Shown one piece after another: positions 5,727 to 23,844 of a stretch of 34,585 bases of DNA (position 1 is the stretch's first letter; every line of letters begins with the position of its first letter). Position numbers and translations under genes: made by a program. The stretch is from Planctomycetaceae bacterium (GTDB lineage Bacteria > Planctomycetota > SZUA-567): positions 1 through 34,585 of the forward strand of contig JAJQFC010000304.1 of NCBI GenBank assembly GCA_021201355.1, given 5' to 3'. The notes under the pieces were generated by a model that saw only the letters and a list, made by a program, of their open reading frames with translations, did not search any database and was not told where the DNA came from.

Positions 5727-6237
5727 TGCGCCCATATGGATGGATGAGAAAGTATAGTATCCAAGTAAGCAAGTTTACTAAAGAATGCGCGTGCTCTCCA
5801 AATTTATCCTACTTAAATTCGAATGTTCGTCGGCCTGACCGCATAAAGCTCGGCTAATTTCATAATAGTTGTGCCGCTCGAAGGAAAACATTTTCTTCGA
5901 ATTAGCGATTATATTCCAAAAGGAAATGTATTTTACCTTTTCTTTAACACGCTAATGAGTCGCAACCTTTATTTTGTCCTCCTCCCATTCTTTGACAGAC
6001 CAATAAATGTAATCTTGGCGAATTATAGGGTGGAAGGGCACCTGCATAGAGGACGTTTTTCTTCAGAGAAAATTGACCATCAATCTTCCTAATAGCGCCT
6101 CGGCATTAATTGCTATCCATCGCCAGTGCAGCCTAGATAATCCTAAGGTCGTTATTGGTTAAGACGAATTGCTTTGATCGGTATATGTATAAACGAAGTA
6201 ATAGAAACCGTGAGTAAAGTGCGAGGTGTTATTTATT
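5727..6237 (+). other. Intergenic stretch without a convincing gene
   Basis: About 510 AT-rich bases between the LacI gene and the original tRNA-Gly terminator. A 73-codon open frame (5871-6092) has no Shine-Dalgarno site and no recognisable similarity. Before insertion this was the region between the convergent LacI gene and the tRNA-Ala/tRNA-Gly transcript. I see no RNA gene or repeat in it. Confidence 0.5.
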
Positions 6238-6264
6238 AAAAACCGCAACCCCTTGAGGTTGCGG
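6238..6264 (-). terminator. Original tRNA-Gly terminator, now stranded at the left end
   Basis: On the minus strand: CCGCAACC, six-base loop, GGTTGCGG, then TTTTT. It lies ten bases beyond the tRNA-Gly fragment and is nearly identical to the terminator behind the intact tRNA at 23734-23760. Lying outside the core repeat, it should be the chromosome's original terminator, cut off from its tRNA by the insertion. Confidence 0.8.
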
Positions 6265-6274
6265 CGGTTAAAGC

Positions 6275-6322
6275 TGGAGCGGGCGAAGGGAATCGAACCC
6301 TCGTGATCAGCTTGGAAGGCTG
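6275..6322 (-). repeat. attL: 48-bp tRNA-Gly 3' fragment
   Basis: These 48 bases match 23771-23818 exactly. They cover the tRNA from the anticodon arm through the T-arm and acceptor 3' strand to the encoded CCA. Identity stops abruptly at 6323, within the tRNA sequence, so no D-arm or 5' acceptor strand is present. This is the left attachment site left by site-specific recombination. Confidence 0.93.
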
Positions 6323-6764
6323 ATTCAATGGCGATGCATCTCCTTTGATAGCAACGTAATATATTAAGAGGCAATAGCTTGCATCTAAACCGCACCCTTT
6401 CATATGAAGCATAATCGAGCAACATGAGGCATGAAAATTTGCCTATTGGTGCGGGAAAGGTGCGGTGCGTGCGTTACATTGTATCAAGATGAATCAACAG
6501 CATTATTTAGGAAAACTGCCTTCATTTTATTGCAAAGCAATATAGCATTAAAGGTCTCGGCCAGACGGTGGCCAATCCAACTCAAACGGTTCAAGGAGTC
6601 CCGTCTTATGGTGACTGGCTATGAATAATTTATATTTCGTTTCCCTTCCCGTCTTTTCCTGTAGTGTTTTTAGCAACGCAACAAAATACGCAATTTTTCT
6701 AATTGGGGTCCTGCAACCGAAAATAACACCTTTTAAGGCACTCTCGTGATAAAAAACTTTGTTG
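6323..6764. other. Left-end island DNA without a convincing gene
   Basis: Apart from the GTGCGG repeats, this 440-base stretch holds only short open frames without ribosome sites (for example 6431-6628 on the + strand). It lies between attL and the end of the serine recombinase gene and probably serves as attachment-site DNA. Confidence 0.5.
6390..6465. repeat. GTGCGG repeats near the left end (possible integrase arm sites)
   Basis: CCGCACCC at 6390-6397 (inverted), GGTGCGGG at 6448-6455 and GGTGCGG at 6459-6465. The phrase CCTATTGGTGCGGGAAAGG recurs at the right end near 23678-23695. Repeated short motifs close to both att cores are typical arm-type binding sites of tyrosine integrases, which is the likely role here. 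Confidence 0.45.
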
Positions 6765-7403
6765 TCATTGGCGACTTGGTAAGTGGTGATTCTTTTGCCT
6801 ATTCATTGCCATTATACGCTTTACTTGACTCACACTACACCCAGCAGCCTTGGCTGTCTCTGTGATTGTGTGGCCGTCTTTCCTAAGTGCGATGATGCGC
6901 TGATGTATTATTGTATTCGCTTTCCGACCTGCATATTTTCCTGAAGCCTTGGCAAGTGCAATGCCCTGTCGCTGCCTCTCCCGCCTTGTTTCATAATCAT
7001 CCCGAGCCATTTGTAATGCAAGCTTCAATAACATCTCCTGCACTGATTCAAGGATGATTTTTGCCACGCCGTCGCTGTCATTCATTATTTCGGTGAAATC
7101 CACCACCCCGGGAATTGCAAGCCGAGCACCCTTATCACGGATGGATTTTACCAACCGTTCTGCCTCGGGAAGGGCCAGACGGCTAATCCGGTCCATTTTT
7201 TCTGCAATAACCACCTCACCCGGTTGGAGGTCTCGAATCATCCGATTAAGTTCGGCACGATCTGCATTTGCTCCTGATGCCTTTTCACTATAGACCCCAG
7301 CTATGTAAAAACCGGCCCTTCTCGCGTCGTCAACAATTTGCTCCTGCCGGGCCAGATCTTGGTCGACTGTGCTGACACGCTGATAGATTCGAGCTATTTT
7401 CAT
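6765..7403 (-). CDS. Serine recombinase (resolvase/invertase family)
   Basis: 212 residues, the normal small-resolvase length. The N-terminal catalytic domain starts MKIARIYQRVSTVDQDLARQ with nucleophile Ser11 in RVST and the conserved downstream pattern EKMDRISRLALPEAERLV. The C-terminal Hin-type helix-turn-helix reads TITETAKAAGCSVSQVKRI. It would cut and rejoin DNA through a Ser-DNA link, resolving dimers or inverting segments. GGAGG lies five bases before the ATG and a near-consensus promoter lies upstream. No second copy of a crossover site is obvious, so its target is unknown. Confidence 0.92.
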   Translation of the reverse strand: MKIARIYQRVSTVDQDLARQEQIVDDARRAGFYIAGVYSEKASGANADRAELNRMIRDLQPGEVVIAEKMDRISRLALPEAERLVKSIRDKGARLAIPGVVDFTEIMNDSDGVAKIILESVQEMLLKLALQMARDDYETRRERQRQGIALAKASGKYAGRKANTIIHQRIIALRKDGHTITETAKAAGCSVSQVKRIMAMNRQKNHHLPSRQ

Positions 7404-7931: not shown

Positions 7932-8546
7932 CTAATTAAACTGTCTATGGGTACGCGGGTAGTTATCCTCTGACCAAAGCCTACCGAGGACATGAAGCCC
8001 TAATTCCCTCGGGTATGGAATCCATTTTTCGCTCCAATTATAACATAATGACAGTTTAAAGTTTTGTCCAAACTGCCATTGGATAGCGTTCTTCCGGGTT
8101 ACATTCTTTACCTGACTGAAAAATGATTCGCCGTTTGGCATAATATGTTCGAATGTCTGGAGGCTGGTGTCAGCTAATAAGGCTTTCCCTTTAATAATAA
8201 TCCTTCCAACCTCAGCTATGTCCTTTCGGAACTCTATATGTGAAATTAGCTCGCTATCTTTCCTGTTGAATACCACAATGTAATGTTCAGCAAAGACACC
8301 GTATTTGTAGGTGAATTCGCCGACGATTTCACGAATAACATATCCATACTTCTCTCGTATTTCTTGTGCTATGGTCTCTCTATGGTAATCGCCATTATAG
8401 CGGAGCGACATAATAGCGAAGTTGGCGTGAGGAGGTAAATCTTCAAATATTGGAAGGACGGCACGGGTACGGAGGGATTTGATTTCCAATGGGAAATAAT
8501 CGCAATAACGCCCCTTTATGAATTCACCAACTTTAAGATGACTCAT
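7932..8546 (-). CDS. Unknown protein, SLRYNGDY family, copy 1
   Basis: 204 residues, no family recognised. It is clearly paralogous to the gene at 12034-12627. Shared blocks in order are IxGxYCxYFP near the start, LPP/LPT then SLRYNGDY, E..REKYGYVIREIVGE against VRSGYGYSIREIVGE, YGVFAEHYIVV against YGVFPEHYVVI, and VTRKNAIQWQFGQNFKL against VTRKNALQKQFGENWKL. No signal peptide or membrane span is seen; it looks soluble and cytoplasmic. AAAGGA precedes the ATG. It is the last gene of a minus-strand cluster divergent from the RHH-like gene at 9249. Confidence 0.75.
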   Translation of the reverse strand: MSHLKVGEFIKGRYCDYFPLEIKSLRTRAVLPIFEDLPPHANFAIMSLRYNGDYHRETIAQEIREKYGYVIREIVGEFTYKYGVFAEHYIVVFNRKDSELISHIEFRKDIAEVGRIIIKGKALLADTSLQTFEHIMPNGESFFSQVKNVTRKNAIQWQFGQNFKLSLCYNWSEKWIPYPRELGLHVLGRLWSEDNYPRTHRQFN

Positions 8547-8608
8547 AATATGTTCCTTTAATTTTTATAGTTGGTTTATTATCCGTTCCCAAAATTTTAA
8601 ATAAATTA

Positions 8609-8857
8609 TTAACAAATTCCTTCAAGCCGTTCCACCACTTCGGGATAGATGGAGACTGGCCGGAGAAATGTATCGGCTACCCTTAGGGCCAGAAGCGCAA
8701 GGTCCCGTAATTCCTCATCAGGGTTCTTCTCTGCCCGAGCGACTAGGTAGTCCGTGCAGGCAATAATACGGGTCTTTTTACCTTCTTTCCCTACCCCTCT
8801 ACAGCGCGTCTTAGTGCCTAAAACTCTCCTGAGACGTAAAAGGCCGAGAACAGGCAA
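8609..8857 (-). CDS. Short unknown frame, probably the shifted end of the 107-residue gene
   Basis: An open frame of up to 82 codons, with helical acidic/basic C-terminal sequence (EKNPDEELRDLALLALRVAD). It overlaps the end of the upstream gene by 40 bases in the -1 frame. The only early start is a TTG without a Shine-Dalgarno site. It is therefore more likely the continuation of the upstream gene after a -1 frameshift than a separate gene. No family recognised. Confidence 0.4.
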   Translation of the reverse strand: MPVLGLLRLRRVLGTKTRCRGVGKEGKKTRIIACTDYLVARAEKNPDEELRDLALLALRVADTFLRPVSIYPEVVERLEGIC

Positions 8858-9141
8858 CCAATGGTGATCGCGATAGTCTCATAGTCAGAGGGATCATTAT
8901 TGAGGAGTGAGCAGAGGAATGAATCACGCTGGTCACGGTTGGTGATATCCACGTCCGAAAGGCCATGCTCTACCTTTTCATTGAGGAAGGCATCAGCCTT
9001 CCTATCAATCGCTTGCTTATAGCTCCTACGGTACTCATCCTTGGGCATTGCAAGAGACCGATGGATGCCGAAAATATCCTCAGAGGGGATAAGGTTGAAA
9101 CTTTCCTCGGTACTCCAATCCAAGCTCTTTTCATGCGCCAT
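8818..9141 (-). CDS. Unknown 107-residue protein
   Basis: Starts at the ATG at 9141, which follows a strong GGGAGGGG on the minus strand; an open frame 25 codons longer has no such site. The sequence is acidic and helical, beginning MAHEKSLDWSTEESF, with DEYRRSYKQAIDRKADAFL in the middle and a hydrophobic tail ETIAITIGCLFSAFYVSG. No family recognised. It is divergent from the RHH-like gene at 9249 (107 bp apart), so the two may share a control region. The frame ends just where the -1 frame of 8609-8857 opens. Confidence 0.6.
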   Translation of the reverse strand: MAHEKSLDWSTEESFNLIPSEDIFGIHRSLAMPKDEYRRSYKQAIDRKADAFLNEKVEHGLSDVDITNRDQRDSFLCSLLNNDPSDYETIAITIGCLFSAFYVSGEF

Positions 9142-9248
9142 ATAACCCCTCCCTTTTTTAATGGTATATAAAGATGGATTCGGTAATATTGACTCCATTG
9201 TGATATAAAGGTCCAAGCACCTTAATTCGAAACAGGATGATTATATAA

Positions 9249-9782
9249 ATGGTAAAGCGTTATTCTGTCAGTGTTTCCGATGAATTGGCAAACAAAATTG
9301 ACAAGTGGAAGAAGTCCATTAATGTTTCCCAAGTCTTTCAGGAAGCCATGGAAAGGGTCATCGCGGATAAGGAAGGTTATACCTCCCGGCTTACCGACTA
9401 TGACGATTCCATCGAATCTATCGTCGAACGACTCCGCAGAGAAAAGTCCCTTGAAGACCAAACCTATTATAACCAAGGTAAAGAAGTAGGCTTTGAATGG
9501 GCAAGAAAGGCCAGCTATCGCGAGATTCAAATGGCGATATCGAAAAAAGCTGAAGTCGACAAAAATAGAGATAAAAGCAGTGGCCTGAAGAAGGGCAGTC
9601 TAAAAATTGGTCCATTTAAAGAAATTATCTCTAAAATTCTTCAGGACACTGCTGAATGGCAAACAATCCAGTGGAAATTTAAATCTGAATCTGGATTGCT
9701 GCCTGCGGAAGCAATTCAATGGCTGCGTGGTTGGCTTGACGGTGTTGACACTCTATGGATTCAGGTTGCAGATAAAATCTAG
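9249..9782 (+). CDS. Ribbon-helix-helix-like regulator, copy 1
   Basis: 177 residues. The first ~45 resemble a ribbon-helix-helix DNA-binding domain: strand KRYSVSVSDELANKIDKW, then a helix with VFQEAMERVIADKEG. The long remainder is unknown. A paralog of equal length is at 13443-13976; they share the N-terminus, the middle pattern G-x-E-W-A-x-x-A-S and the C-terminal Trp-rich end (WLRGWLDGVDTLW against WFEGWLEGVSTFW). AGGATGA lies upstream of the ATG. It is transcribed away from a minus-strand cluster holding the SLRYNGDY gene, the typical placement of a local repressor or antitoxin-like regulator (inference). Confidence 0.7.
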   Translation: MVKRYSVSVSDELANKIDKWKKSINVSQVFQEAMERVIADKEGYTSRLTDYDDSIESIVERLRREKSLEDQTYYNQGKEVGFEWARKASYREIQMAISKKAEVDKNRDKSSGLKKGSLKIGPFKEIISKILQDTAEWQTIQWKFKSESGLLPAEAIQWLRGWLDGVDTLWIQVADKI

Positions 9783-9865
9783 CATACACTCCCAGTCTTT
9801 TAGAATAAAGTTGCATTTAATAAGAAAGTTAGTATGCGAGCAACCGCTCTCTTCACCTAGCTTGC

Positions 9866-10636
9866 CTATCTAAATATAATGACTTTATTTACTCCGGACG
9901 GATAGAATGAGGTTTCATTCGATTTTTCCACGACTTCGTCAACCATTATGATCGAATTGTAAAAAACAAGCCTCGGCGCAAGAATTAGATTGTCTTTATA
10001 ATCTTCCATCATTACGCTAATATTAGAGACCAGAGATCCTCCAGAACTCTGAAACCCTTCCGCAGAAGGATCACCATTGGCGTCAACCATTGTAAAACTT
10101 ATGTGTGAGCGTCCGATAATGAAATCTCTACTTAAGCTATCAGGTATTCGGTAAACATCACTAGAAATTTCGAATTCAGCGGTATCTGTACCCTGACTTT
10201 TAAGATCGAATTTCGAAATAACAACCAACTTGTCGAAGCCATCGATAGAAGAACCAAAATCAATCCGGGTTTTTTCAGGATCCCAACTCCGATACCCGGC
10301 GAATTCTTTTTTACGATCTGTATGCCGCCAAGAGTTTTCACTATTTACAGTTGCATTAAATGGCGTCGACTCAATATCATTTCTTCTGAATAAGTCACGG
10401 ATCTCGGTGATGAATTCATTATATTTATCTTGATTTACGGAAACCTGTGCTGAGTATTTAAGGACCTGCGGTCTACTAACAGGGAGGGTCGGAAAGTCGG
10501 TAAATGTTATGTCATAAAAGTCTTTTTGATATTTAGATAATATACTCGCATATTCAGTTGGGAGGTCCTGGGCCATAGCAAAGTTTGAAACAAAAATGAA
10601 AGCCAGCAGAAGTTGTGTCTTTACGATAAATTTCAT
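9866..10636 (-). CDS. Unknown secreted protein
   Basis: 256 residues from the ATG at 10636, chosen because AAGGA lies upstream and a clear signal peptide starts here: MKFIVKTQLLLAFIFVSNFA ending in Ala-Met-Ala before Gln. The mature part is rich in beta-type and charged segments and has no family I recognise. The open frame extends 73 codons further upstream, but that part covers an RNA leader and is not protein-like. Its start overlaps the stop of the small gene at 10633-10725 by ATGA, so translation of the two is probably coupled. Confidence 0.75.
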   Translation of the reverse strand: MKFIVKTQLLLAFIFVSNFAMAQDLPTEYASILSKYQKDFYDITFTDFPTLPVSRPQVLKYSAQVSVNQDKYNEFITEIRDLFRRNDIESTPFNATVNSENSWRHTDRKKEFAGYRSWDPEKTRIDFGSSIDGFDKLVVISKFDLKSQGTDTAEFEISSDVYRIPDSLSRDFIIGRSHISFTMVDANGDPSAEGFQSSGGSLVSNISVMMEDYKDNLILAPRLVFYNSIIMVDEVVEKSNETSFYPSGVNKVIIFR

Positions 10637-10725
10637 AGCATTCCTTTCCCGTGATCGATAACGCCTGCACAATAAAAACCCAAAAGTAGAACTGCAAAAA
10701 AAGCTCCCCAAAATTTCACATCCAT
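10633..10725 (-). CDS. 30-residue hydrophobic peptide coupled to the secreted protein
   Basis: ATG at 10725, with AAGGAG six bases upstream, runs to TGA at 10633-10635, which shares ATGA with the next gene's start. The peptide begins MDVKFWGAFFAVLLLGFYC and ends in a short polar tail, so one membrane helix spans about residues 5-20. It lies only about 20 bases after an intrinsic-terminator-like hairpin. It may be a membrane micro-protein, a leader peptide controlling translation of the secreted protein, or a small partner. The ribosome site and exact coupling are visible; the role is unknown. Confidence 0.6.
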   Translation of the reverse strand: MDVKFWGAFFAVLLLGFYCAGVIDHGKGML

Positions 10726-10744
10726 GCTCATCTCCTTGGCCAAC

Positions 10745-10768
10745 AAAAAAGGGACGGATCAACCGTCC
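10745..10768 (-). terminator. Intrinsic terminator or attenuator before the small peptide gene
   Basis: Minus strand GGACGG, five-base loop, CCGTCC, C, then TTTTTT. It ends only about ten bases before the Shine-Dalgarno of the 30-residue gene. No protein gene ends just upstream of it, so it likely acts on the leader transcript as an attenuator or ends a small RNA. Confidence 0.7.
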
Positions 10769-10774
10769 ACCAGA

Positions 10775-10872
10775 GGCTTCCTGCCAAGTCAGCCATGCAA
10801 GCACGTGATGAGCCGTCCCAAATTTTTGGGACGACAAGGTACGCGTGGCTTGCATTACAAAATCTGGCAGGA
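10775..10872 (-). ncRNA. Structured RNA leader candidate
   Basis: Nested inverted repeats share one axis: outer 8 bp (10779-10786 with 10865-10872), then 7 bp (10795-10801 with 10849-10855), 4 bp (10802-10805 with 10844-10847), and an inner 9-bp stem CGTCCCAAA/TTTGGGACG (10814-10833). On the minus strand the structure is followed at once by the terminator at 10745-10768. GGGACGG of the inner stem is also complementary to CCGTCCC of the terminator, giving alternative foldings. A 19-base motif inside it recurs at 13325-13343. It could be an attenuating leader, a cis-regulatory element or a small RNA. Confidence 0.5.
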
Positions 10873-11061
10873 TTTTTCTGGTGGTACTTCGCCTTGTCGT
10901 AAACTATATGTGAGGTTTGTATGAATAAAGCGCTATGCCATAGGCGTTGCCTTTCCTCGAAGGGTAAGGAGATAAAAAGTCCATATTATTATATCTTTAT
11001 CGGCCACTTTTGCAATGGGATGTGGCGTATATCGCACCGTCGAATCTTTGGTAGCTTAAAT

Positions 11062-11077
11062 AGGGTTAATTAACCCT
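11062..11077. repeat. 16-bp perfect palindrome
   Basis: AGGGTTAATTAACCCT lies in the ~280-base gap after the DnaB-like gene (10873-11153). A further half-site CAGGGTT at 11096-11102 can pair with AACCCTG at 11072-11078, so alternative hairpins are possible. No T-run follows on either strand, making an operator more likely than a terminator. The same gap holds AGGAGGTGAT at 11117-11126, but no gene follows it. Confidence 0.45.
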
Positions 11078-11153
11078 GCGTTCATGGTACCAAAACAGGG
11101 TTGTTTATATTATTACAGGAGGTGATAACCAGACTCAACGACGAGGTGCTTAA

Positions 11154-12026
11154 TCAGCATTCCTGAAAATTTTCTAGCTTGCAGTACTGACTATTAAAAT
11201 ACAAATTGACCCAGCCACAAGGCCCATGAGTATTTTGTACTACTTTGACTTCAAGCTCTCCGGGTCTTTCATTGGCGACATAATACTCGGGTCTATATAA
11301 CAAAAGGATATTATCAGCTTGGACCGCTGTATTTCCATAAAGCTTTGAGACACTAGGCAGACGGGACGATCCATGTGGCTTTAAGTTTGAGATTGCAATG
11401 ATGGGTATGTCCAATTGGCGGCTTAATAGCCGTAAACTACGCATTGAACTACTCACCTGAATAGAATGGGGATTATCATTTTTTGATATTTTCATCAGCT
11501 CGAAACTATCAATTACAAATATCTCCACTTTATTCTTCTCTCTCATAAGACGCATTTGGTCCACCACCTCGGAAAAATCCAATCCATAAGGCTGGCAGAT
11601 CCATAGTGGAATATTCTTTAACTCCTCACATGCTTTTGTAACTTTTATCTTTTCCGCTTTGGACAAATTACAGCATCTTATCTTTTGTGAATCGACATGT
11701 GACTGTAATGCCATAAAACCTATAACCAACCATGGGTTCCTATAGGAGATCAACCCTACACTTCTCTTTGAGCATGACACGCTATGAGCGACATTCATCC
11801 CAAAAATAGTTTTACCCATAGAAGGCAAACCCGCAACTACAGTAAGCTCACTCTTGTGAAGGCCACCATTTAGAATTTGATCCAATTCAGTAAACCCGGT
11901 TTTAATTGCGTTTTCTTCATCGGAGAACCTAGATTCCCAATCATCCCAAAATTGGATTAATGCTCGATTGATTGAAACAAAGTGATCAATCTTAACCTTC
12001 TCAAGCGGTACATTACTCCCTTCCAT
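11154..12026 (-). CDS. DnaB C-terminal-domain-like ATPase
   Basis: 290 residues matching only the RecA-like C-terminal domain of replicative helicase DnaB; the ~150-residue N-terminal domain is absent. The sequence TGFTELDQILNGGLHKSELT leads into Walker A GLPSMGKT (residues 66-73), Walker B VEIFVIDSF (Asp173), a LSRQLDIPIIAISNL strand and AVQADNILLLYRPEYY near the end. The segment where DnaB has S-L-E-M reads ISYRNPW, so the catalytic Glu seems missing. AGGAG precedes the ATG, seven bases after the preceding gene's stop, so it is the third gene of a minus-strand operon. It may load, remodel or regulate rather than act as a full helicase. Confidence 0.8.
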   Translation of the reverse strand: MEGSNVPLEKVKIDHFVSINRALIQFWDDWESRFSDEENAIKTGFTELDQILNGGLHKSELTVVAGLPSMGKTIFGMNVAHSVSCSKRSVGLISYRNPWLVIGFMALQSHVDSQKIRCCNLSKAEKIKVTKACEELKNIPLWICQPYGLDFSEVVDQMRLMREKNKVEIFVIDSFELMKISKNDNPHSIQVSSSMRSLRLLSRQLDIPIIAISNLKPHGSSRLPSVSKLYGNTAVQADNILLLYRPEYYVANERPGELEVKVVQNTHGPCGWVNLYFNSQYCKLENFQEC

Positions 12027-12033
12027 GACTCTC

Positions 12034-12627
12034 CTACATTTCTATGCTGGTGTAATCGGCCCTGATTTCTCCCAATACCTTGAGAGCAGGATCAGCCGCA
12101 CCTGTTTTCCAATCATAGCGCCAAGCATATATTTGAGTAAGCTTCCAGTTTTCCCCAAACTGCTTCTGGAGGGCATTCTTTCTTGTGACGGCTTTTTCAA
12201 AGCGGACGGATTTTCCTCCGTCAATTTCTAAGTGCTCAAAATACTTTTCCTCGGGATTAACCACAATGACCTTCCCTTTGGAAATACTTCGACCAATATC
12301 ATTCACGTCATCCCAAAACGTTTTAAAAGGAATGATTTTATGGTGTCTAAGGTTGTAGATTACAACATAATGCTCAGGAAATACGCCGTATGGAAAGGAA
12401 TACTCACCGACGATTTCCCTAATTGAATAGCCGTATCCACTCCTCACATGCTCTTGAATTTCTTCCCGACCATAATCCCCGTTGTAACGCAGTGAGGTGA
12501 TGGCATAGTAGGTACCTGTGGGAAGATCGGCAAAAATGGGCGGTATTGCTCGATTCGGTAAATTCCTGCAATCTTCAGGAAAATACGGGCAGTGATAGCC
12601 GGTTATGAAGTCCTTCAGGTTAAACAT
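12034..12627 (-). CDS. Unknown protein, SLRYNGDY family, copy 2
   Basis: 197 residues, paralog of the gene at 7932-8546, with the same block order (YCPYFP-like start, SLRYNGDY, GYSIREIVGEYSFPYGVFPE, and VTRKNALQKQFGENWKL near the end). There is no signal peptide or membrane helix and no known catalytic motif that I recognise. GGAGG lies six bases before the ATG. It sits between a class II amidotransferase gene and the DnaB-like gene in one operon. That two copies survive suggests a real function within this element. Confidence 0.78.
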   Translation of the reverse strand: MFNLKDFITGYHCPYFPEDCRNLPNRAIPPIFADLPTGTYYAITSLRYNGDYGREEIQEHVRSGYGYSIREIVGEYSFPYGVFPEHYVVIYNLRHHKIIPFKTFWDDVNDIGRSISKGKVIVVNPEEKYFEHLEIDGGKSVRFEKAVTRKNALQKQFGENWKLTQIYAWRYDWKTGAADPALKVLGEIRADYTSIEM

Positions 12628-12679
12628 AGCTCGCCTCCACTAAGGACATTGGCGACCTTCCCCTCACTCTGGTTCACCG

Positions 12680-13231
12680 TTACCACTCCTGAGGAACAAG
12701 CTTTCTGGAGAACCACAGACCGCCTAGCCACTGCCCTTGTTGCTCATTACAAATTACCACCCTTCCAGAGCCGTTCATAAAAGCCAGCTTATTGTGACGG
12801 CCAATTTCCTCCTCCAGCATGGCAAACCGACGTATACCAGCCAAACTATCGCCATTCATTGAGGATAGATGCTGATCACGAAAAGTTATTGTGTCAGATA
12901 CCTCAGCATCAGTGTCAATACCACGAGTGAAAGTGCCGTTATGGACAAAGGCCAAATCAGATGCAATGCGATGGGGATGGCAGTTTTCCATGTTAATGGA
13001 ACCCACGGTCGCATATCGAAAGTGGAAAATTACAGGCACATTGGGAAATTCCTTCTGCCTCTTACGCCACACATTCAGGAAATCACAAAACGTTCCAAGA
13101 TGCTTATGAATAATCACCTTATCTTGAGACGGGAACATAAAACCGGCCCCATGTGGGTTGGACTGAAAGCAACGCTTAAGTATATCTACGTTGATCGGGA
13201 CTCCAACCGGCTTGAAAATAATGATGCACAT
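12680..13231 (-). CDS. Class II glutamine amidotransferase-like protein
   Basis: 183 residues from the ATG at 13231, chosen because it gives the N-terminal M-C-I-I-I-F-K-P in which Cys2 becomes the Ntn nucleophile after Met removal; AAGGGG lies upstream. Family motifs are NPHGAGFMF, HFRYATVGSINMENCHPHRI and the oxyanion region FVHNGTF. Small proteins of this type are found in phages and mobile elements, but their acceptor substrates are generally unknown. It is the first gene of the operon with the SLRYNGDY and DnaB-like genes and is divergent from the RHH-like gene at 13443. No synthetase domain is attached. Confidence 0.82.
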   Translation of the reverse strand: MCIIIFKPVGVPINVDILKRCFQSNPHGAGFMFPSQDKVIIHKHLGTFCDFLNVWRKRQKEFPNVPVIFHFRYATVGSINMENCHPHRIASDLAFVHNGTFTRGIDTDAEVSDTITFRDQHLSSMNGDSLAGIRRFAMLEEEIGRHNKLAFMNGSGRVVICNEQQGQWLGGLWFSRKLVPQEW

Positions 13232-13279
13232 TAAGCCCCTTTCGAAAACGTATTCCATGTATTGAAAAGAAGTTAAATA

Positions 13280-13343
13280 GACGCCGCCCATTTAAAAGAC
13301 GGCGTCCTTACCTCTTCTCGCAGTGCTAACTTGGCAGGAAGCC
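13280..13343 (+). promoter_or_regulatory. Leader RNA element: hairpin plus conserved 19-mer
   Basis: A GACGCCG/CGGCGTC hairpin (13280-13306) is followed after 18 bases by GCTAACTTGGCAGGAAGCC (13325-13343). The same order occurs on the minus strand at 10775-10833: a stem, 20 bases, then GCTGACTTGGCAGGAAGCC. It lies about 100 bases before the RHH-like gene at 13443. Very AT-rich DNA with an ATACT/AGTAT inverted pair follows and may hold that gene's promoter. Confidence 0.45.
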
Positions 13344-13442
13344 CATTTTTAACTTTTGCATAATACTATAAAAAGTATATACTGTCAATATATTATATAA
13401 CATAAATTTAAGATAGCCCAATTTATATAAAAGGAGAGAATC

Positions 13443-13976
13443 ATGGTAAAGCGGTTTTCCGTCTCTGTTTCGGAAGAATTGGGGCAAAGGATTCATCGCT
13501 GGAAAGATGAAATCAGCCCTTCAGCGATATTTCAACGTGCTATGGAGGAAGTGGTTAGAGAGAAAGAGGAGTTTTCTGGGCGATTGCAAGATGACCCCGC
13601 ACTACCTGAAGTAGTGGAACGGCTTAGAACTGAAAGTGGTAAGGCAAGGTCAGAGTACAGAGTTAATGGAAAGAGTAAAGGTATTGAATGGGCTAAGTGC
13701 GCATCATTAAAGAACATAAAGCATATTCTTCATGAAAAAGAATGCTTTGATGATCTCTTCTCACAGAATGAGCGCATTCCTCCTTCAATGATCTTGGATG
13801 ATTATGTAATCGGGGCTTATGTTAAGCAGGCTTGGGCCGGAGATCCTGCTTTTGAATCCAAATACGTCGGAAACAAAAGAAAGGAAGAGGTTCTGTCCCC
13901 GGAATCTGTATTATGGTTTGAGGGTTGGTTGGAAGGCGTAAGCACTTTTTGGAAGGAAGTCGAAAAGCGGATGTAG
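13443..13976 (+). CDS. Ribbon-helix-helix-like regulator, copy 2
   Basis: 177 residues, paralog of 9249-9782. It begins MVKRFSVSVSEELGQRIHRW, a ribbon strand and first helix, and continues AIFQRAMEEVVREKE as the second helix. The C-terminal ~130 residues are unknown and share only scattered positions and the Trp-rich end with copy 1. GGAG lies six bases before the ATG. It is divergent from the amidotransferase/SLRYNGDY/DnaB-like operon, just as copy 1 is divergent from the other SLRYNGDY cluster, which supports a regulator-plus-operon module (inference). Confidence 0.72.
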   Translation: MVKRFSVSVSEELGQRIHRWKDEISPSAIFQRAMEEVVREKEEFSGRLQDDPALPEVVERLRTESGKARSEYRVNGKSKGIEWAKCASLKNIKHILHEKECFDDLFSQNERIPPSMILDDYVIGAYVKQAWAGDPAFESKYVGNKRKEEVLSPESVLWFEGWLEGVSTFWKEVEKRM

Positions 13977-14190: not shown

Positions 14191-15504
14191 ATGGTATTAA
14201 GGATTCCATCGGGTAAGTATCCCCGGCCATCATGGCAGAAAGCCATGATGGTTATGGTTACATTACGGCTCTTGATTATGATGGGACTTCTAATTATGGC
14301 ATCCGCATGTTTGGCAGTTGCTGGAGAAGGTAAATCGGACTTCACTGTGTCCTTGTATCCAGTCGAGGCGTTCATTGCAAAATGGGAGCACTCGGGAGGA
14401 AGTGAGTTAGGCTCATCACAGAGCTTTCTAAATGAATTATGCGATCTCCTCCTTGTTGACCGGCCACACCCACCAAGGGCGAAAAACCGCGATAATCGCT
14501 ACACCTTTGAAAAAAAGGTGACCTTTGTTAATCCTAATGGAAAGGTCAGTAGAGGTCGGATTGACCTTTATAAACGGGGTTGTTTTGTACTTGAATCCAA
14601 GCAAGGCTCTGCTAATTTTCCAGCGATTGATAGAGGGCCGGATTTTAGCAGAGGCACTGCAATACGTTATACCAATGCTTGGGATGAAGCGAGAATCAAT
14701 GCCCGTCTCCAAGCTGAAAGGTACGTTAATGCACTCCCGCCTGAGGATGGACGCCCTCCTTTCATAATGGTGGTCGATGTCGGTGAGTGCATCGAAGTCT
14801 ACTCTGATTTCGGGCAGGCTGGTGTTTATACTCCTTTCCCTTTCCCTCAAAACCACTGCATTTTATTGGAGGATTTGAAGGAACCTGATATTCAGGACAG
14901 GCTCCACCGCATCTGGACTGACCCGATGTCCCTCAATCCGGCAATAGCCACGGAACGGGCAACGCAAGATATCGCGGAAATACTGGCTCGTCTAACAGCC
15001 TCATTGGAGGAGTCAGGATACCGGGCTGAGACCATCTCAAAGTTTTTAATGCGGGCAATTTTCAGCATGTACGCCGAAGACGTGGAGCTAATTCCAAAAG
15101 ACTCCTTCACTTTGTTAGTTGCGAAATTGCGCGATGCTGCCATTGGCTCCAACACCGACGACACGACGATGCTGTCCACCATCGAACTGACCGAATTGTG
15201 GAAAGTGATGAATAAGGGAGGAACCTTCCCTTCCATAAAGGGCCAAATAAGGCGTTTTGGGGGGCCTCTGTTCGCAGAGGATGCAATTGCCCTACCGCTT
15301 ACTGCCGGACAGTGTGAGATGCTCTTTGAGGCCGCTAAAGCGGAATGGTCATTAGTGGGTCCTCCATTTTTGGCACTCTGGTCGAAAGAGCACTTTCCCC
15401 CGAGCAGCGCCATAAAATGGGGACTCATTACACTCCATCCGCTTTTGTGGAGCGTTTGGTGGTACCCAGTATTATTGAACCGTTGCGGCTCGAATGGAAT
15501 GTGA
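14191..15504 (+). pseudogene. MmeI-like type IIL restriction-methyltransferase, part 1: nuclease and helical region
   Basis: The MmeI-like enzyme (endonuclease, methyltransferase and target recognition in one chain) spans three frames to 17323, about 990-1040 residues in all. This part has the N-terminal nuclease fold with a PD-ExK core, GRIDLYKRGCFVLESKQG (Asp125, Glu135, Lys137 from 14191), then the helical connector. Sequence resembling MmeI begins near YPVEAFIAKW, so a GTG at 14347 may be the true start. The preceding ~50 codons read like a hydrophobic signal segment, which is odd for a cytoplasmic enzyme. Homology leaves this frame near 15365, at EWSLVG; the remaining codons to 15504 are out of frame. 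Confidence 0.78.
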
Positions 15505-16103
15505 CCAGAGATATTGCGCTGGAACACATTCGTAAAGGAGACCGGGTTGCTGCCAAGGAAAAGGTGAGAAGGTTTCATAAGCAACTATGTGAGACAGTTA
15601 TCCTCGACCCTGCCTGCGGCAGTGGGAATTTTCTGTTTGTATCCCTGAACCTCATTGCTTCACTTGAAGCTGAAATCCGTTCCGCATTAATCGGTCTGGG
15701 CGACTTGGAATATCTTCACAACGACCAATGCCCATCTGTAACTCCAAGTCAATTTAAAGGTATTGAACTTAATCCTCACGCTGCGGACATAGCAGAAGTG
15801 GTATTGTGGATAGCCTGCCTCCAGAGCCATTACAAGAACAACGGTCGTGTTCCCCCGAACGAGCCTATCATCCCTGATGACCATGTTGTTTTTAGGGGGG
15901 ACGCAATCCTTGCAGCAGAATGGCCGAGGGCTGATTTTATTGTGGGCAACCCTCCCTTTGCTGGCAACAAACGACTCCGTACTTTTTTGGGGACGAGTAT
16001 GTTGAAAAAATGTTTCGGCTATATCCCGACTTTCCCAAAAACACGGACTATGTCATGCGTTTTTGGGACAAGGCCGCAGCCCTGGCGAGAGAGGGGGAAA
16101 TAG
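15345..16103 (+). pseudogene. MmeI-like type IIL enzyme, part 2: methyltransferase motifs
   Basis: In the -1 frame relative to part 1, homology resumes at SIFGTLVERALSPEQRHKMG followed by THYTP. It contains the SAM-binding motif LDPACGSGNFL and the catalytic motif FIVGNPPF of amino-methyltransferases that modify adenine N6. Homology leaves this frame just after NKRLRTFLG near 15985, at the run TTTTTTGGGG. The codons after that to 16103 are out of frame. A -1 slip on T-TTT-TTG would restore the reading, so recoding cannot be excluded, but the first junction has no such site. Confidence 0.78.
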
Positions 16104-17323
16104 TTCGGTTCGGTTTTATCACTACCAACAGCATCAGTCAGGTCAGCAATAATCAAATCATCAAAAAGCATCTTGAAGCAGAAAATCCTCTTTCCATTGT
16201 ATATGCTATCCCAGACCATCCCTGGGTTGACGGTGCTGGAAACGCAAAGGTTCGCATTGCCATGACTGTTGGTGAGGCCGGATCGAAAGAAGGGACCCTT
16301 GCCGTCATTACCAAAAGTCAAAAAGGGTATGATGGAGTTCCGCAACTGGAGTTCAGCACGCGATACGGTTACATCAAACCAAACCTTACTGTAGGGCCGA
16401 GTTTAACCAATGCCAAGGCATTAAAAGCCAATGCCGGATTAGCATTCATGGGAATTAAGCCCGTAGGCAAGGGGTTCATAATTACGAAGGAAAAGGCCGA
16501 GGAACTTGGTTTGGGAACGACTCCGGGTCTTCAAAAGCATATTCGCCCGTACATGAACGGACGTGATGTTGTAGGAATTAATCGCGGTCTTTTGGCGATT
16601 GATATGTGCCAATTGAATGCGGACGAGGTGAATAGATGCTTTCCGTTAGTTTTTCAATGGCTCCACGATACTGTGAAACCAATCCGCGATCAGAATAAAA
16701 TGGAATCAAGGAGGTTAAACTGGTGGAAATTTGGTTCAGCCATTACCGGGTTTAATAAGGCAGTCTCCGGCTTGCCGAGATATATTGTAACGTGTAATAC
16801 CGCGAAGCACCGTCTTTTCATATTTTTGGACAGCAATGTTATTCCCGATGGTGCTCTTACAGCCATCGCTTTGGATGATGCCTTTTACCTAGGAGTACTT
16901 TCCTCAAGAGTACACGAAATATGGGCGGACGCCACCGGAGGAACACGTGGTCAAGGTAAAGTGTATAATAAGACTCTTTCATTCGACGGATTTCCGTTTC
17001 CTGATGCAAATTCCACGACCATGGAAAAAATACGTGAGCTTGGCGAAGCTATCGACCAACATCGAAAACAGCGTCAGTCCATGTTTCCTCAGCTTACCCT
17101 CACGGAAATGTATAATTTGATGGGTATTCTTCGTAACGGCGATGAGCTGTCTGAAAGAGACTTGCAGGCAATCGAACATGGCCAAATTAAAGATCTCCTT
17201 GAAATGCATGACGAATTGGACGAAACCGTGGCAACGTCATATGGTTGGCCAAGCGACATAGCTGACGCAGAGGTGTTGGAATTACTTATTCAACTAAATA
17301 AAACACGCGCAAGCAATGAGTAA
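16010..17323 (+). pseudogene. MmeI-like type IIL enzyme, part 3: methyltransferase end and target recognition
   Basis: Again one frame back. The reading in fact begins near 15986 with GDEYVEKMFRLYPDFPKNTD. It completes the methyltransferase fold (FGFITTNSISQVSNNQII) and then carries the target-recognition region (PNGRD-like HIRPYMNGRDVVG, RLNWWKFG, and the LDSNVIPDGALTAIALDD segment) and the C-terminal helical part ending at TAA. Domain order after the catalytic motif matches MmeI relatives, so the DNA target would be set by this part. It is uninterrupted, and the gene at 17384 follows on the same strand. Confidence 0.8.
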
Positions 17324-19161: not shown

Positions 19162-20205
19162 TTATATAAAATAGGTAACCAAACAACGGGAGATGGCGTA
19201 AATCAAGGGCATATCGCCCCCATTCCCATTAGACATGGAGCGGATATAACCCGTTAGTAGGTATAATGTGAAATCGCTACCATGGAATCGAAGATGCTGC
19301 CTTAATCTACTCGGCTTGGTCGGCAACGGGGCCATAATTACTATTTTCCGATGTTTTTTCACTGTATTGTGCAGTCCAGCAAACAGTTTTTGAAGTTGCT
19401 CTAAGTATTCATCTCGATGATCTTTTTCCAAATATTTATCCAGCATTACCTCCAATCCGCGAGCCACCTTGTTAATATCCTTACGCTTTACCTCACAGTC
19501 GTTTGCATATTGCTCAATCAAAGCTTTTATCTTCTCGGAAGTTTGTTCTGGCTCGACCTCTGAGACCGTCATACAGTCGGGGTCCCGCTCTGATCCACAT
19601 TCGTTTGAGCGAACAACAACCTCCAGTGCCTTCGTGGTCGTACTCTTTCGACTTTTGGGAATAACGAATGGTTCAACAGCTTTTTTTGCGAATTCCACCG
19701 TTATTTCACCCCTAGGACTTTTACTGGCTTCATTCCAAGCGCTCTGATATGCCATAAGCATTTTGTCTGTATCTTTAACTTTGTAAAATTCTAATAACGG
19801 TGGGAGTGTCTTTGGAATTGCCCCCGCCCCGAAAATCTCCATTGCCATATATACGATGGGACCGGCATTCAAGTAGTTATATGCCGCAGATTTTTCAAGA
19901 TCCAAAAGCGCCATGACACAATCCAGCTTATTTTCGAACTGTCCCTTCCAAAGACCCTCTTTTTCGATTTTATAAGCAGATAAGGCGTATGCGGCAATAC
20001 TCCATCTTCTCGCTGCGAGAGCCCTACGGCCCATTTCTTGGCACTCCATGATACTATTTTTGATGGCATCGGGCGTTTTAGCAACAGTCTTCATATGCTC
20101 AGAATCAATGCATATACTATTCCTAAAATCTGTTAGCATCTTTGAACCATTATTACTTGGGGGTAGAACTTGTTCTACCTCCGCGTCCACAACGATTTCA
20201 TTCAC
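19162..20205 (-). CDS. Unknown, probably DNA- or replication-related protein
   Basis: 347 residues from a GTG at 20205, chosen because AAAGGAG lies seven bases upstream. The N-terminal half is helical: MGRRALAARRWSIAAYALSA, then ALLDLEKSAAYNYLNAG, a pattern resembling helix-turn-helix proteins of phages and plasmids (ParB- or DUF3102-like). I cannot assign the family. The middle is low-complexity and charged with a Ser/Glu-rich linker; the C-terminal part is basic helical (KKHRKIVIMAPLPTKPSRLR). It leads a cluster with the 83-residue gene. Imperfect hairpins occupy the ~200-base gap upstream. Confidence 0.55.
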   Translation of the reverse strand: MNEIVVDAEVEQVLPPSNNGSKMLTDFRNSICIDSEHMKTVAKTPDAIKNSIMECQEMGRRALAARRWSIAAYALSAYKIEKEGLWKGQFENKLDCVMALLDLEKSAAYNYLNAGPIVYMAMEIFGAGAIPKTLPPLLEFYKVKDTDKMLMAYQSAWNEASKSPRGEITVEFAKKAVEPFVIPKSRKSTTTKALEVVVRSNECGSERDPDCMTVSEVEPEQTSEKIKALIEQYANDCEVKRKDINKVARGLEVMLDKYLEKDHRDEYLEQLQKLFAGLHNTVKKHRKIVIMAPLPTKPSRLRQHLRFHGSDFTLYLLTGYIRSMSNGNGGDMPLIYAISRCLVTYFI

Positions 20206-20326
20206 AGAAGATCTCCTTTTAGTTCTCAAGGTACAGCCCACCCGAGCCCCATGAGGGCCATCCTCAGAGGTAAGATAACACCCGAATAGGCATTTTTCAT
20301 GCTTGCGCTGAGCTATTCAGGCGTGT

Positions 20327-22439: not shown

Positions 22440-22748
22440 TTAGAGCCGATCTATTTCGGAATCTCTTCTATCCCGAGGAATAAATCGCGCATAATGCCGT
22501 CGACAAACCTCTGGGGTATTACCCATCCAAGCGCATATTTTATCAAGACTCACGCCGCTTTGTGCCAATAATGAACCGAAAGTGTGACGAAAAGAATTCC
22601 ATCCGATACGTTCCAGCTGGGCTTCGAGTTCGCCATCTCTTGTTTTCAGTTGCATTTCATACTCTTTTTTAAAATTTTTGTACTTTTCTGATTTAGACGC
22701 GGAAACACGTTTCAAGCCCCATGACTTAATGGTTTTGAATTTTTGCAA
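22440..22748 (-). pseudogene. int: Tyrosine integrase, part 3: C-terminal catalytic region
   Basis: Carries the second catalytic box GWNSFRHTFGSLLAQSG and the Tyr nucleophile in CRRHYARF, with WMGNTPEV between. Where most relatives have H-x-x-R this reads N-S-F-R, so the His is replaced by Asn. It is in the same frame as part 1, but part 2 lies between them in another frame. A +1 (or -2) shift near the A-run at about 22745 joins it to part 2. Confidence 0.82.
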
Positions 22749-23016
22749 TTTCCGGATTTTCCGAATTTAGTGTATTAAGCCTTGCAACGCGGTCAGAATC
22801 ATCGGGAATCTGAATAACATAACCGACACGCTTCGAATCCGGTACCGCTTGCAGATATTCTTTAAGTGTGGAATGGAGCGGCAGTGTTCTTGGGGTCCCT
22901 GTTTTGGTTTTGGTGACAACAATCGTCCCTTCGGAAAATCTGATATCCCCCCACAAGAGGTTTGCTATCTCCTCACGCCTCATCCCGGTGAAAAGCCCAC
23001 AGGTATTGCCAACCAA
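22726..23016 (-). pseudogene. int: Tyrosine integrase, part 2: first catalytic Arg region
   Basis: Contains LFTGMRREEIANLLWGDI, the box with the first catalytic Arg, and the beta-hairpin TKTKTGTPRTLPL that follows it. Homology enters this frame after AIPVG near 23000, where one base appears to be missing next to GGG. Without this frame the enzyme lacks a catalytic residue, so the intact reading requires both shifts. Confidence 0.82.
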
Positions 23017-23654
23017 TCATCCCAACCTGTTTGCCGCGCCAATTCAATTATTTCCTCCTTCTCGTCTGGAGTGCAGTAAACGATATCTGCCCGTAGTTGT
23101 TCAGGCACACGTTTTATCGCAGTAAGTGGATTGTTACGTAGTCGCTTAGTTATTATTGCCCAATTGAAAAATCGGGCGAATGCATTATGAGTACGATTCC
23201 GTGTTCCCGGTGATTTTGAAGCTGCAATTTCTGCAAGGTAGTCATTTAACTTATCAGCAGTTGCGTTTTCCATACCACCAAGCCTCTCGGTAAGCTTTTC
23301 GAGATATGATATGGAAATATCTGCCCATCGCTTTGAACAGCCACCACGCACGTCCTTTTCATATGATTCTTTCCAGTTGTTAATGGAGACGGGCGTAATA
23401 TCAGGGCTCCCAAAGCGGTCATTCAGATAAGTAACTACCGCTTGGCATTCAGCAAACTCATCAGGAAATATAGGCTGAGGCATGGCCAAAGCTGCCGAGA
23501 CAAGGCGAAGTGCATTATTGACCATACCTACCTTTTACTGATCAACATAGTTGGTGGGAATGGAATATTGTCGTTTATTCCACTTCCAATAAATACGCCA
23601 TCTGCCACCATGAAACCGCTTACGGGGAATGGGAAACTCGGAAAGTCTAGGCAT
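22980..23654 (-). pseudogene. int: Tyrosine integrase, part 1: arm-binding and core-binding domains
   Basis: The original start is the ATG at 23654, preceded by AAGGAGG with good spacing. It opens MPRLSEFPIPRKRF and GGRWRIYWKWNKRQYSIPTN, an N-terminal beta-type domain. An in-frame TAA at 23535-23537 stops it after 39 codons; translation could restart at the ATG at 23525 but without a ribosome site. The rest is the helical SAM-like core-binding domain (AGTRNRTHNAFARFFNWAI region). It ends at 22980 after a -1 shift near 23000. Altogether the integrase needs three repairs, so it is very probably inactive unless the calls are errors. Confidence 0.85.
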
Positions 23655-23681
23655 GTATGGCCTCCTTAGCTCCTTCCTATT

Positions 23682-23724
23682 GGTGCGGGAAAGGGTGCGG
23701 GAAGCATATCATAAAGGGTGCGGG
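23682..23724 (+). repeat. GTGCGGG direct repeats near the right end (possible integrase arm sites)
   Basis: GGTGCGGG at 23682-23689, GGGTGCGGG at 23693-23701 and 23716-23724, all in one orientation between the integrase start and the tRNA terminator. Related copies lie near the left end at 6390-6465. Confidence 0.5.
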
Positions 23725-23733
23725 TATTCAAAT

Positions 23734-23760
23734 AAAAACCGCAACCCATTGAGGTTGCGG
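23734..23760 (-). terminator. Terminator behind tRNA-Gly, brought by the element
   Basis: Minus strand CCGCAACC, six-base loop, GGTTGCGG, TTTTT, ten bases after the tRNA CCA. It differs at a few bases from the stranded copy at 6238-6264. Since it lies on the element side of the core repeat, it was supplied by the element to keep the tRNA functional. Confidence 0.85.
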
Positions 23761-23770
23761 TAGTTGAAAT

Positions 23771-23818
23771 TGGAGCGGGCGAAGGGAATCGAACCCTCGT
23801 GATCAGCTTGGAAGGCTG
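23771..23818 (-). repeat. attR: 48-bp core repeat within tRNA-Gly
   Basis: Identical to 6275-6322. Crossover lies somewhere in these 48 bases, so the tRNA now combines a chromosomal 5' part with an element-derived 3' part. Confidence 0.93.
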
Positions 23819-23844
23819 GGGCTCTACCATTGAGCTACGCCCGC
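23771..23844 (-). tRNA. tRNA-Gly (anticodon TCC)
   Basis: Reads Gly from acceptor GCGGGCG / CGCCCGC, D-arm GCTC/GAGC, anticodon loop CTTCCAA (TCC at its centre), T-arm with TTCGATT, discriminator T and encoded CCA; 74 bases. One C-A mismatch at the base of the anticodon stem. It is the integration target and remains complete. No promoter is seen directly upstream; transcription should come from the tRNA-Ala promoter, although a terminator-like hairpin intervenes. Confidence 0.95.

Follow-up and report, generated by a model that had tools for sequence, protein, structure and literature searches.

Duplicated divergent gene cassettes carried by a tRNA-Gly genomic island of a Planctomycetaceae bacterium

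RESULTS

Two divergent cassettes of the same design

We analysed a stretch of 34,585 nucleotides from a Planctomycetaceae bacterium (GenBank assembly GCA_021201355.1, contig JAJQFC010000304.1; hereafter the window), which corresponds to contig C151 in a 3.85-Mb genome fragmented into 372 contigs. It contains two gene cassettes in which a plus-strand gene for a ribbon-helix-helix (RHH)-like regulator faces a minus-strand cluster that includes a gene for a ∼200-residue protein, here called SLR after its SLRYNGDY motif. These loci had been described in an earlier note made from the sequence alone, and all genes were found where it had placed them, on the strands that it gave. In cassette 1, RHH1 faces two small orphan open reading frames (ORFs) followed by SLR1; in cassette 2, RHH2 faces the genes for an amidotransferase, SLR2 and a DnaB-like protein, which are separated by gaps of 52 and 7 bp (Table 1). 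The partner genes thus differ between the two cassettes, as the note had pointed out.

The note had also judged both gene pairs to be paralogous but diverged, which our comparison bore out: SLR1 and SLR2 are 45% identical over 183 columns (E = 5e-58), and RHH1 and RHH2 are 34% identical over 181 columns (E = 2e-31). Identity at codon positions 1, 2 and 3 was 0.55, 0.70 and 0.34 for the SLR pair and 0.48, 0.57 and 0.29 for the RHH pair. The third codon positions are less identical, indicating that both pairs are real genes under protein-level constraint. The duplication of the cassette is old.

The cassettes lie on an island bounded by tRNA-Gly repeats

Both cassettes are carried by a 17.5-kb island of low guanine-cytosine (GC) content with a tRNA-Gly direct repeat at both ends. 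The GC content is ∼63% in the right-hand host DNA versus 0.40–0.50 between ∼4 and 23.7 kb of the window, a drop that is largely due to the island. The direct repeat consists of 86 nt, 93% identical between 6237–6322 and 23733–23818, and corresponds to the 3′ half of tRNA-Gly(TCC). With the tRNA 3′ end repeated at each boundary and an integrase beside the tRNA gene, the region is identified as a tRNA-integrated island, in keeping with the mobile-element setting that the note had proposed. The integrase is broken, its coding sequence being split across three frames, and the element is probably immobile. The gene for an MmeI-like enzyme is also split, which reflects either decay or misassembly. 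When the island was searched with Rfam (E up to 1), a weak, partial tRNA-like match at the left repeat (6286–6349) was obtained and nothing else.

In a genome of the same genus (G004), the order of tRNA-Gly and tRNA-Ala and the right-hand host genes are conserved, and homology ends at the tRNA. This genome is without the island in the right-hand tRNA/host context; its left-flank host genes are on a separate contig, and therefore a clean empty site is not demonstrated. The island protein encoded at 19162–20241 had no match among 149 related genomes.

Close to both island ends there are identical 19-nt repeats (CCTATTGGTGCGGGAAAGG) at 6442–6460 and 23676–23694, with further GGTGCGGG units near the right-hand one. 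The 19-nt repeats and the GGTGCGGG units are possibly arm sites of the integrase.

Table 1. Genes and other features of the island (positions in the window)
Feature	Position	Strand	Remarks
Left attachment-type repeat	6237..6322	.	Copy of the 3′ half of tRNA-Gly and its terminator hairpin
Serine resolvase	6765-7403	-	Near the other (left) island end
SLR1, SLRYNGDY family, 204 aa	7932..8546	-	No Pfam, NCBIfam or PADLOC match
Small orphan ORF of cassette 1, 82 aa	8609..8857	-	Overlaps the end of ORF 8818-9141
Small orphan ORF of cassette 1, 107 aa	8818..9141	-	Counted from an ATG preceded by a good Shine-Dalgarno sequence
RHH1, RHH-like regulator, 177 aa	9249..9782	+	C-terminal G..WA / GW.xGV..W domain; weak CcdA match
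Predicted secreted protein, unknown family	9866-10636	-	Between the cassettes; signal-peptide-like start MKFIVKTQLLLAFIFVSNFAMA
DnaB-like RecA domain without helicase catalytic motifs	11154..12026	-	Pfam DnaB_C 8.7e-46
SLR2, SLRYNGDY family, 197 aa	12034..12627	-	Predicted GlnB/PII-like fold
Stand-alone class-II glutamine-amidotransferase-like protein	12680..13231	-	Met-Cys start; PHROG 25883 1.5e-15
RHH2, RHH-like regulator, 177 aa	13443..13976	+	Paralogue of RHH1; two predicted helices
MmeI-like type II restriction-methylation enzyme	14191-17323	+	Split across three frames
Tyrosine integrase adjoining tRNA-Gly	22440..23525	-	Pfam Phage_integrase / Phage_int_M pieces in three successive overlapping ORFs
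Right attachment-type repeat	23733..23844	-	Inside the intact tRNA-Gly(TCC) gene, 23771-23844

Between the cassettes lies a hairpin element (∼10735–10890) with strong predicted folding (z about −5 to −6) and a terminator-like hairpin. Three more copies (75–77%) are present in the same genome, and the one that was inspected (C332, L048) immediately precedes a gene for a predicted secreted protein. Part of the element sequence is repeated at 13317–13343, in the intergenic region between RHH2 and the amidotransferase gene.

Searches for relatives of SLR and RHH

SLR had no match in Pfam, NCBIfam or PADLOC and only sub-threshold matches in PHROG, consistent with its description in the note as a member of an unrecognised family. 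Exact-peptide patterns, which detect close relatives only, were run against 84,980 genomes and 2.9 million viral contigs and found no SLR outside this contig; both alignments (SLR and RHH) served as patterns in the two collections, and single SLR sequences in the viral one as well. tblastn against 50,697 phage and 72,556 plasmid records gave no real match, and profile searches of 392 and 391 genomes of the phylum (overlapping samples) yielded no SLR. Six profile matches with E values of 0.009–0.07 were returned from the 391 genomes around G222; the three strongest were realigned and rejected as chance-like, being short fragments or stop-containing frames. Judged by sequence, SLR is at present an orphan family: no relative could be detected in the collections searched.

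The RHH proteins share the N-terminal motif MVKR[FY]SVSVS[ED]EL..I..WK..I..S.[IV]FQ.AME, which reads strand-helix-helix; in the predicted model the helices span residues 11–23 and 26–49, and the strand region is of low confidence. A distant member of the phylum (L006) encodes a relative with the same architecture, RHH part included (E = 2e-8). The C-terminal domain occurs by itself at L052:1480–1926 and L053:1501–1869 (0 of 1000 shuffles scored as high), and the L052 copy has as its neighbour what appears to be a phage Gp37/Gp68-type gene. tblastn of RHH against the plasmid records gave nothing real, and the RHH alignment used as a pattern had no matches in the genome and viral collections.

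No SLR was found in the genomes with RHH relatives (L006, L052, L053), the profile searches having covered the same phylum. As these relatives occur without SLR, RHH belongs to a wider family that is not tied to SLR. The earlier note had envisaged a recurrent two-gene core with swappable partners as the basis of an undescribed system, and had named as contrary evidence either that the two families lie apart in most genomes or that one of them is a phage protein of settled function. Half of this is what we observed, with members of the RHH family in three places without SLR. SLR was not found beyond this contig in the collections searched, so the data give no support to a system with a recurring core. 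PADLOC has no model for the cassette genes.

Partner proteins of cassette 2

The start of the amidotransferase gene is most likely at 13231, where a Met-Cys start is combined with a good Shine-Dalgarno sequence. The N-terminal Cys nucleophile and the family matches (PHROG, tblastn) place the protein among class-II amidotransferases; in tblastn it was 37% identical to gp06 of Methylophilales phage MEP401 (E = 4e-26), and Pfam GATase_4 scored 20.7 bits, slightly under the cut-off of 23. In MEP401, the homologue lies close to primase, helicase and polymerase genes.

The DnaB-like protein consists of a RecA domain only, which aligns with DnaB of E. coli and of the host (36% identity to the latter), the N-terminal domain being absent. 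It retains Walker A (PSMGKT). The catalytic Glu is lost (SYRN instead of SLEM), the sensor Gln is replaced by Asn (AISNL instead of ALSQL), there is a deletion at GSIEQDAD, and the arginine-finger motif is lost (VQNTHGP instead of KQRNGP). DnaB-type helicases employ a catalytic glutamate and lysine/arginine fingers (PMC8421360). The loss of both the catalytic Glu and the finger motif makes it unlikely that this protein works as a helicase motor and, going by its residues, it is probably not a helicase.

The predicted fold of SLR resembles phage SAM lyases

Structure prediction, which the earlier note had recommended for both proteins, gave a GlnB/PII-like model of SLR, at low confidence, and an RHH model that had no fold match (best match no better than E = 5.7). 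With Foldseek, the top PDB match to the AlphaFold model of SLR was the phage S-adenosylmethionine (SAM) lyase 6znb (E = 4.6e-4, probability 1.00), followed by 6zm9 (another SAM lyase), 7ock (the T3 enzyme) and many CutA/PII proteins, all of them GlnB-like; the template-modelling (TM) scores for the PDB matches of this low-confidence model were 0.31–0.43. Matches in the viral library included named phage SAM hydrolases. As the RHH model, made likewise and of similar confidence, served as a control and had no fold match, a low-confidence model alone does not yield such matches.

SAM-lyase family members share barely detectable sequence, and in Svi3-3 the residues Gly56, Tyr58, Glu69 and Gln104 contact the ligand and have been singled out as conserved, Glu69 being essential (PMC7877911). 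Glu and Gln are both kept in SAM-AMP lyase (PMC12255297). We gathered 16 phage proteins of the SAM-lyase family by homology (T3 family and GAP227/PP2 type), and Gly, Glu and Gln were invariant in 16/16. Aligned by eye, GY..REIVGE[YF]...VF.EHY.V of SLR corresponds to GYTPEVVAGFY...VTFEQSYAV of GAP227_04; when SLR was placed by hand on the predicted strands, G74 coincided with Gly56, Y76 (Phe in SLR1) with Tyr58 and E85 with Glu69 of Svi3-3, G74 and E85 being common to both SLR copies. Automatic alignment does not recover this placement. At the position of the invariant B-loop Gln (Svi3-3 Q104) both SLR copies have Lys117 (KGK), with no Gln nearby.

A separate observation concerns Campylobacter phage CPt10 (L070:163–789), which encodes a 209-aa hypothetical protein that has the Gly/Glu/Gln pattern of SAM lyases and an N-terminal extension and is not annotated as such.

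DISCUSSION

With the paralogy, layout, island context and motif states described above, we tentatively read the cassettes as RHH-regulated accessory operons that are cargo of an old, decaying integrative element, the tRNA-Gly genomic island. The reading with the best support is that of orphan island cargo, rare and duplicated, and we hold it with a confidence that falls a little short of calling it probable. Several results weigh against it. No motif above control was shared as a putative operator by the two RHH-side intergenic regions. The RHH assignment is based on the motif and predicted helices, with no significant profile match (the weak CcdA match, E = 0.098, is below the cut-off). The SLR model had a mean predicted local distance difference test score of 55, higher in the core, and was made from an input of two sequences only. 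Furthermore, hhalign of SLR versus the SAM-lyase family gave a probability of 0.2%, and shuffled sequences scored as high as or higher than SLR against the hidden Markov model of that family in 15% (SLR1) and 37% (SLR2) of cases.

If the cassettes are such cargo, each RHH protein would bind its intergenic region and repress both itself and the facing operon (local autoregulation), and its C-terminal domain may serve oligomerisation or signal sensing. SLR would form PII-like trimers, with a small molecule of the nucleotide type, possibly SAM or a derivative, as its ligand or substrate. Operon 2, with its amidotransferase, SLR2 and degenerate DnaB-like protein, would then be an assembly that includes phage-type early genes and would probably act on the metabolism or replication of the host or of rival phages.

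Could SLR be a divergent lyase of SAM or of a SAM derivative (e.g. SAM-AMP)? Such a small PII-like enzyme would break down the methyl donor, or a signal derived from it, and so help the element to counter restriction, BREX or type III CRISPR signalling. A phage SAM lyase is the best PDB fold match of SLR, named SAM hydrolases recur among the viral matches, the by-eye alignment brings three residues into register with Gly56, Tyr58 and Glu69 of Svi3-3, and faint sequence similarity is a known feature of this family (PMC7877911). However, both copies have Lys where Gln is invariant in the 16 phage proteins, the hhalign and shuffle results speak against a relationship, and PII-like phage proteins without the motif match the SLR fold too. 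As the defining Gln fails and a sequence link is absent, the modelled fold resemblance is a lead, not an assignment, and we consider a SAM lyase unlikely. Slightly less likely again is that operon 2 disturbs DNA replication by means of a non-catalytic, ATP-binding DnaB-like domain that would poison or recruit a host or phage DnaB ring under the control of SLR and RHH. Such a role would suit a protein that keeps Walker A without the helicase catalytic motifs and the N-terminal domain, is 36% identical to the host DnaB and is encoded 7 bp behind SLR2 in the same operon, but the degenerate motifs also fit plain decay or a different RecA-type function, and since a DnaB-like gene is missing from cassette 1, a role of this kind cannot be the function shared by the two cassettes. 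A bolder combination is a long shot: SLR would found a new PII-like branch that cleaves or binds SAM or a SAM derivative, with a Lys-based B-loop suiting a phosphorylated ligand, and the RHH-controlled cassettes that carry it would also direct a catalytically dead DnaB-like protein against replication.

The earlier note had also raised defence and toxin-antitoxin functions, both of which we dropped on the grounds of layout, non-recurrence and the PADLOC result. That SLR and RHH form the core of an undescribed anti-phage defence system is very doubtful: with an MmeI-like type II restriction enzyme next to the cassettes, it is plausible that the island is rich in defence genes, but this enzyme is itself broken, and the core neither recurs in the searched collections nor matches a PADLOC model. 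It is more improbable still that RHH is an antitoxin and SLR its toxin. The weakly CcdA-like RHH N-terminus and the duplication on a mobile island would agree with such a pair; the co-directional operon of two small genes expected of a type II toxin-antitoxin locus was not found, as the genes are divergent, have other ORFs between them and are not co-transcribed. Moreover, at 177 aa RHH would be a long antitoxin, its C-terminal domain stands alone in other genomes, and no toxin family was matched. Since the SLR–RHH pairing was found in none of the other genomes searched, we favour rare mobile cargo over a new widespread system.

If the fold lead is true, SLR would be a new PII-like family among element-borne proteins that possibly act on SAM-type metabolites, a group that is now linked with anti-restriction, anti-BREX and type III CRISPR signalling. 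Otherwise, an orphan family duplicated on one island and a helicase-derived protein without motor residues are still documented. The proposed SLR–RHH pairing does not recur in the sampled genomes.

Comparison with known systems

Like other tRNA-integrated genomic islands with a tyrosine integrase, the island is inserted at a tRNA 3′ end, repeats the tRNA 3′ half, has its integrase beside the tRNA, carries restriction-modification cargo and is low in GC; it differs in that its integrase and restriction genes are frameshifted and most of its cargo has no known relatives. SLR resembles phage SAM lyases (T3 gp0.3 and Svi3-3, of the PII superfamily) and SAM-AMP lyases / AcrIIIB4 in its predicted GlnB-like topology and, as placed by hand, in the Gly and catalytic-Glu positions of the β2/T-loop/β3 region. 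Unlike these proteins, both SLR copies have Lys for the invariant B-loop Gln; they lack sequence-profile similarity to the family and carry extra N- and C-terminal segments of ∼40 residues each.

The amidotransferase resembles phage class-II amidotransferase proteins (MEP401 gp06 and Mycobacterium phage Marvin gp106) with 31–37% identity over 96% of its length, a Met-Cys start and an HNG motif, whereas its gene lies in an RHH/SLR operon, away from replication genes. The DnaB-like protein has the RecA domain of the replicative helicase, with Walker A and the Walker B aspartate, in contrast to which the N-terminal domain, catalytic Glu, sensor Gln and arginine-finger motif of DnaB are missing. 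Finally, the RHH proteins are like CcdA/CopG-like regulators in their putative strand-helix-helix N-terminal motif and in being encoded divergently from an operon that they potentially control, and they depart from them in having a ∼120-residue C-terminal domain that is also found alone elsewhere.

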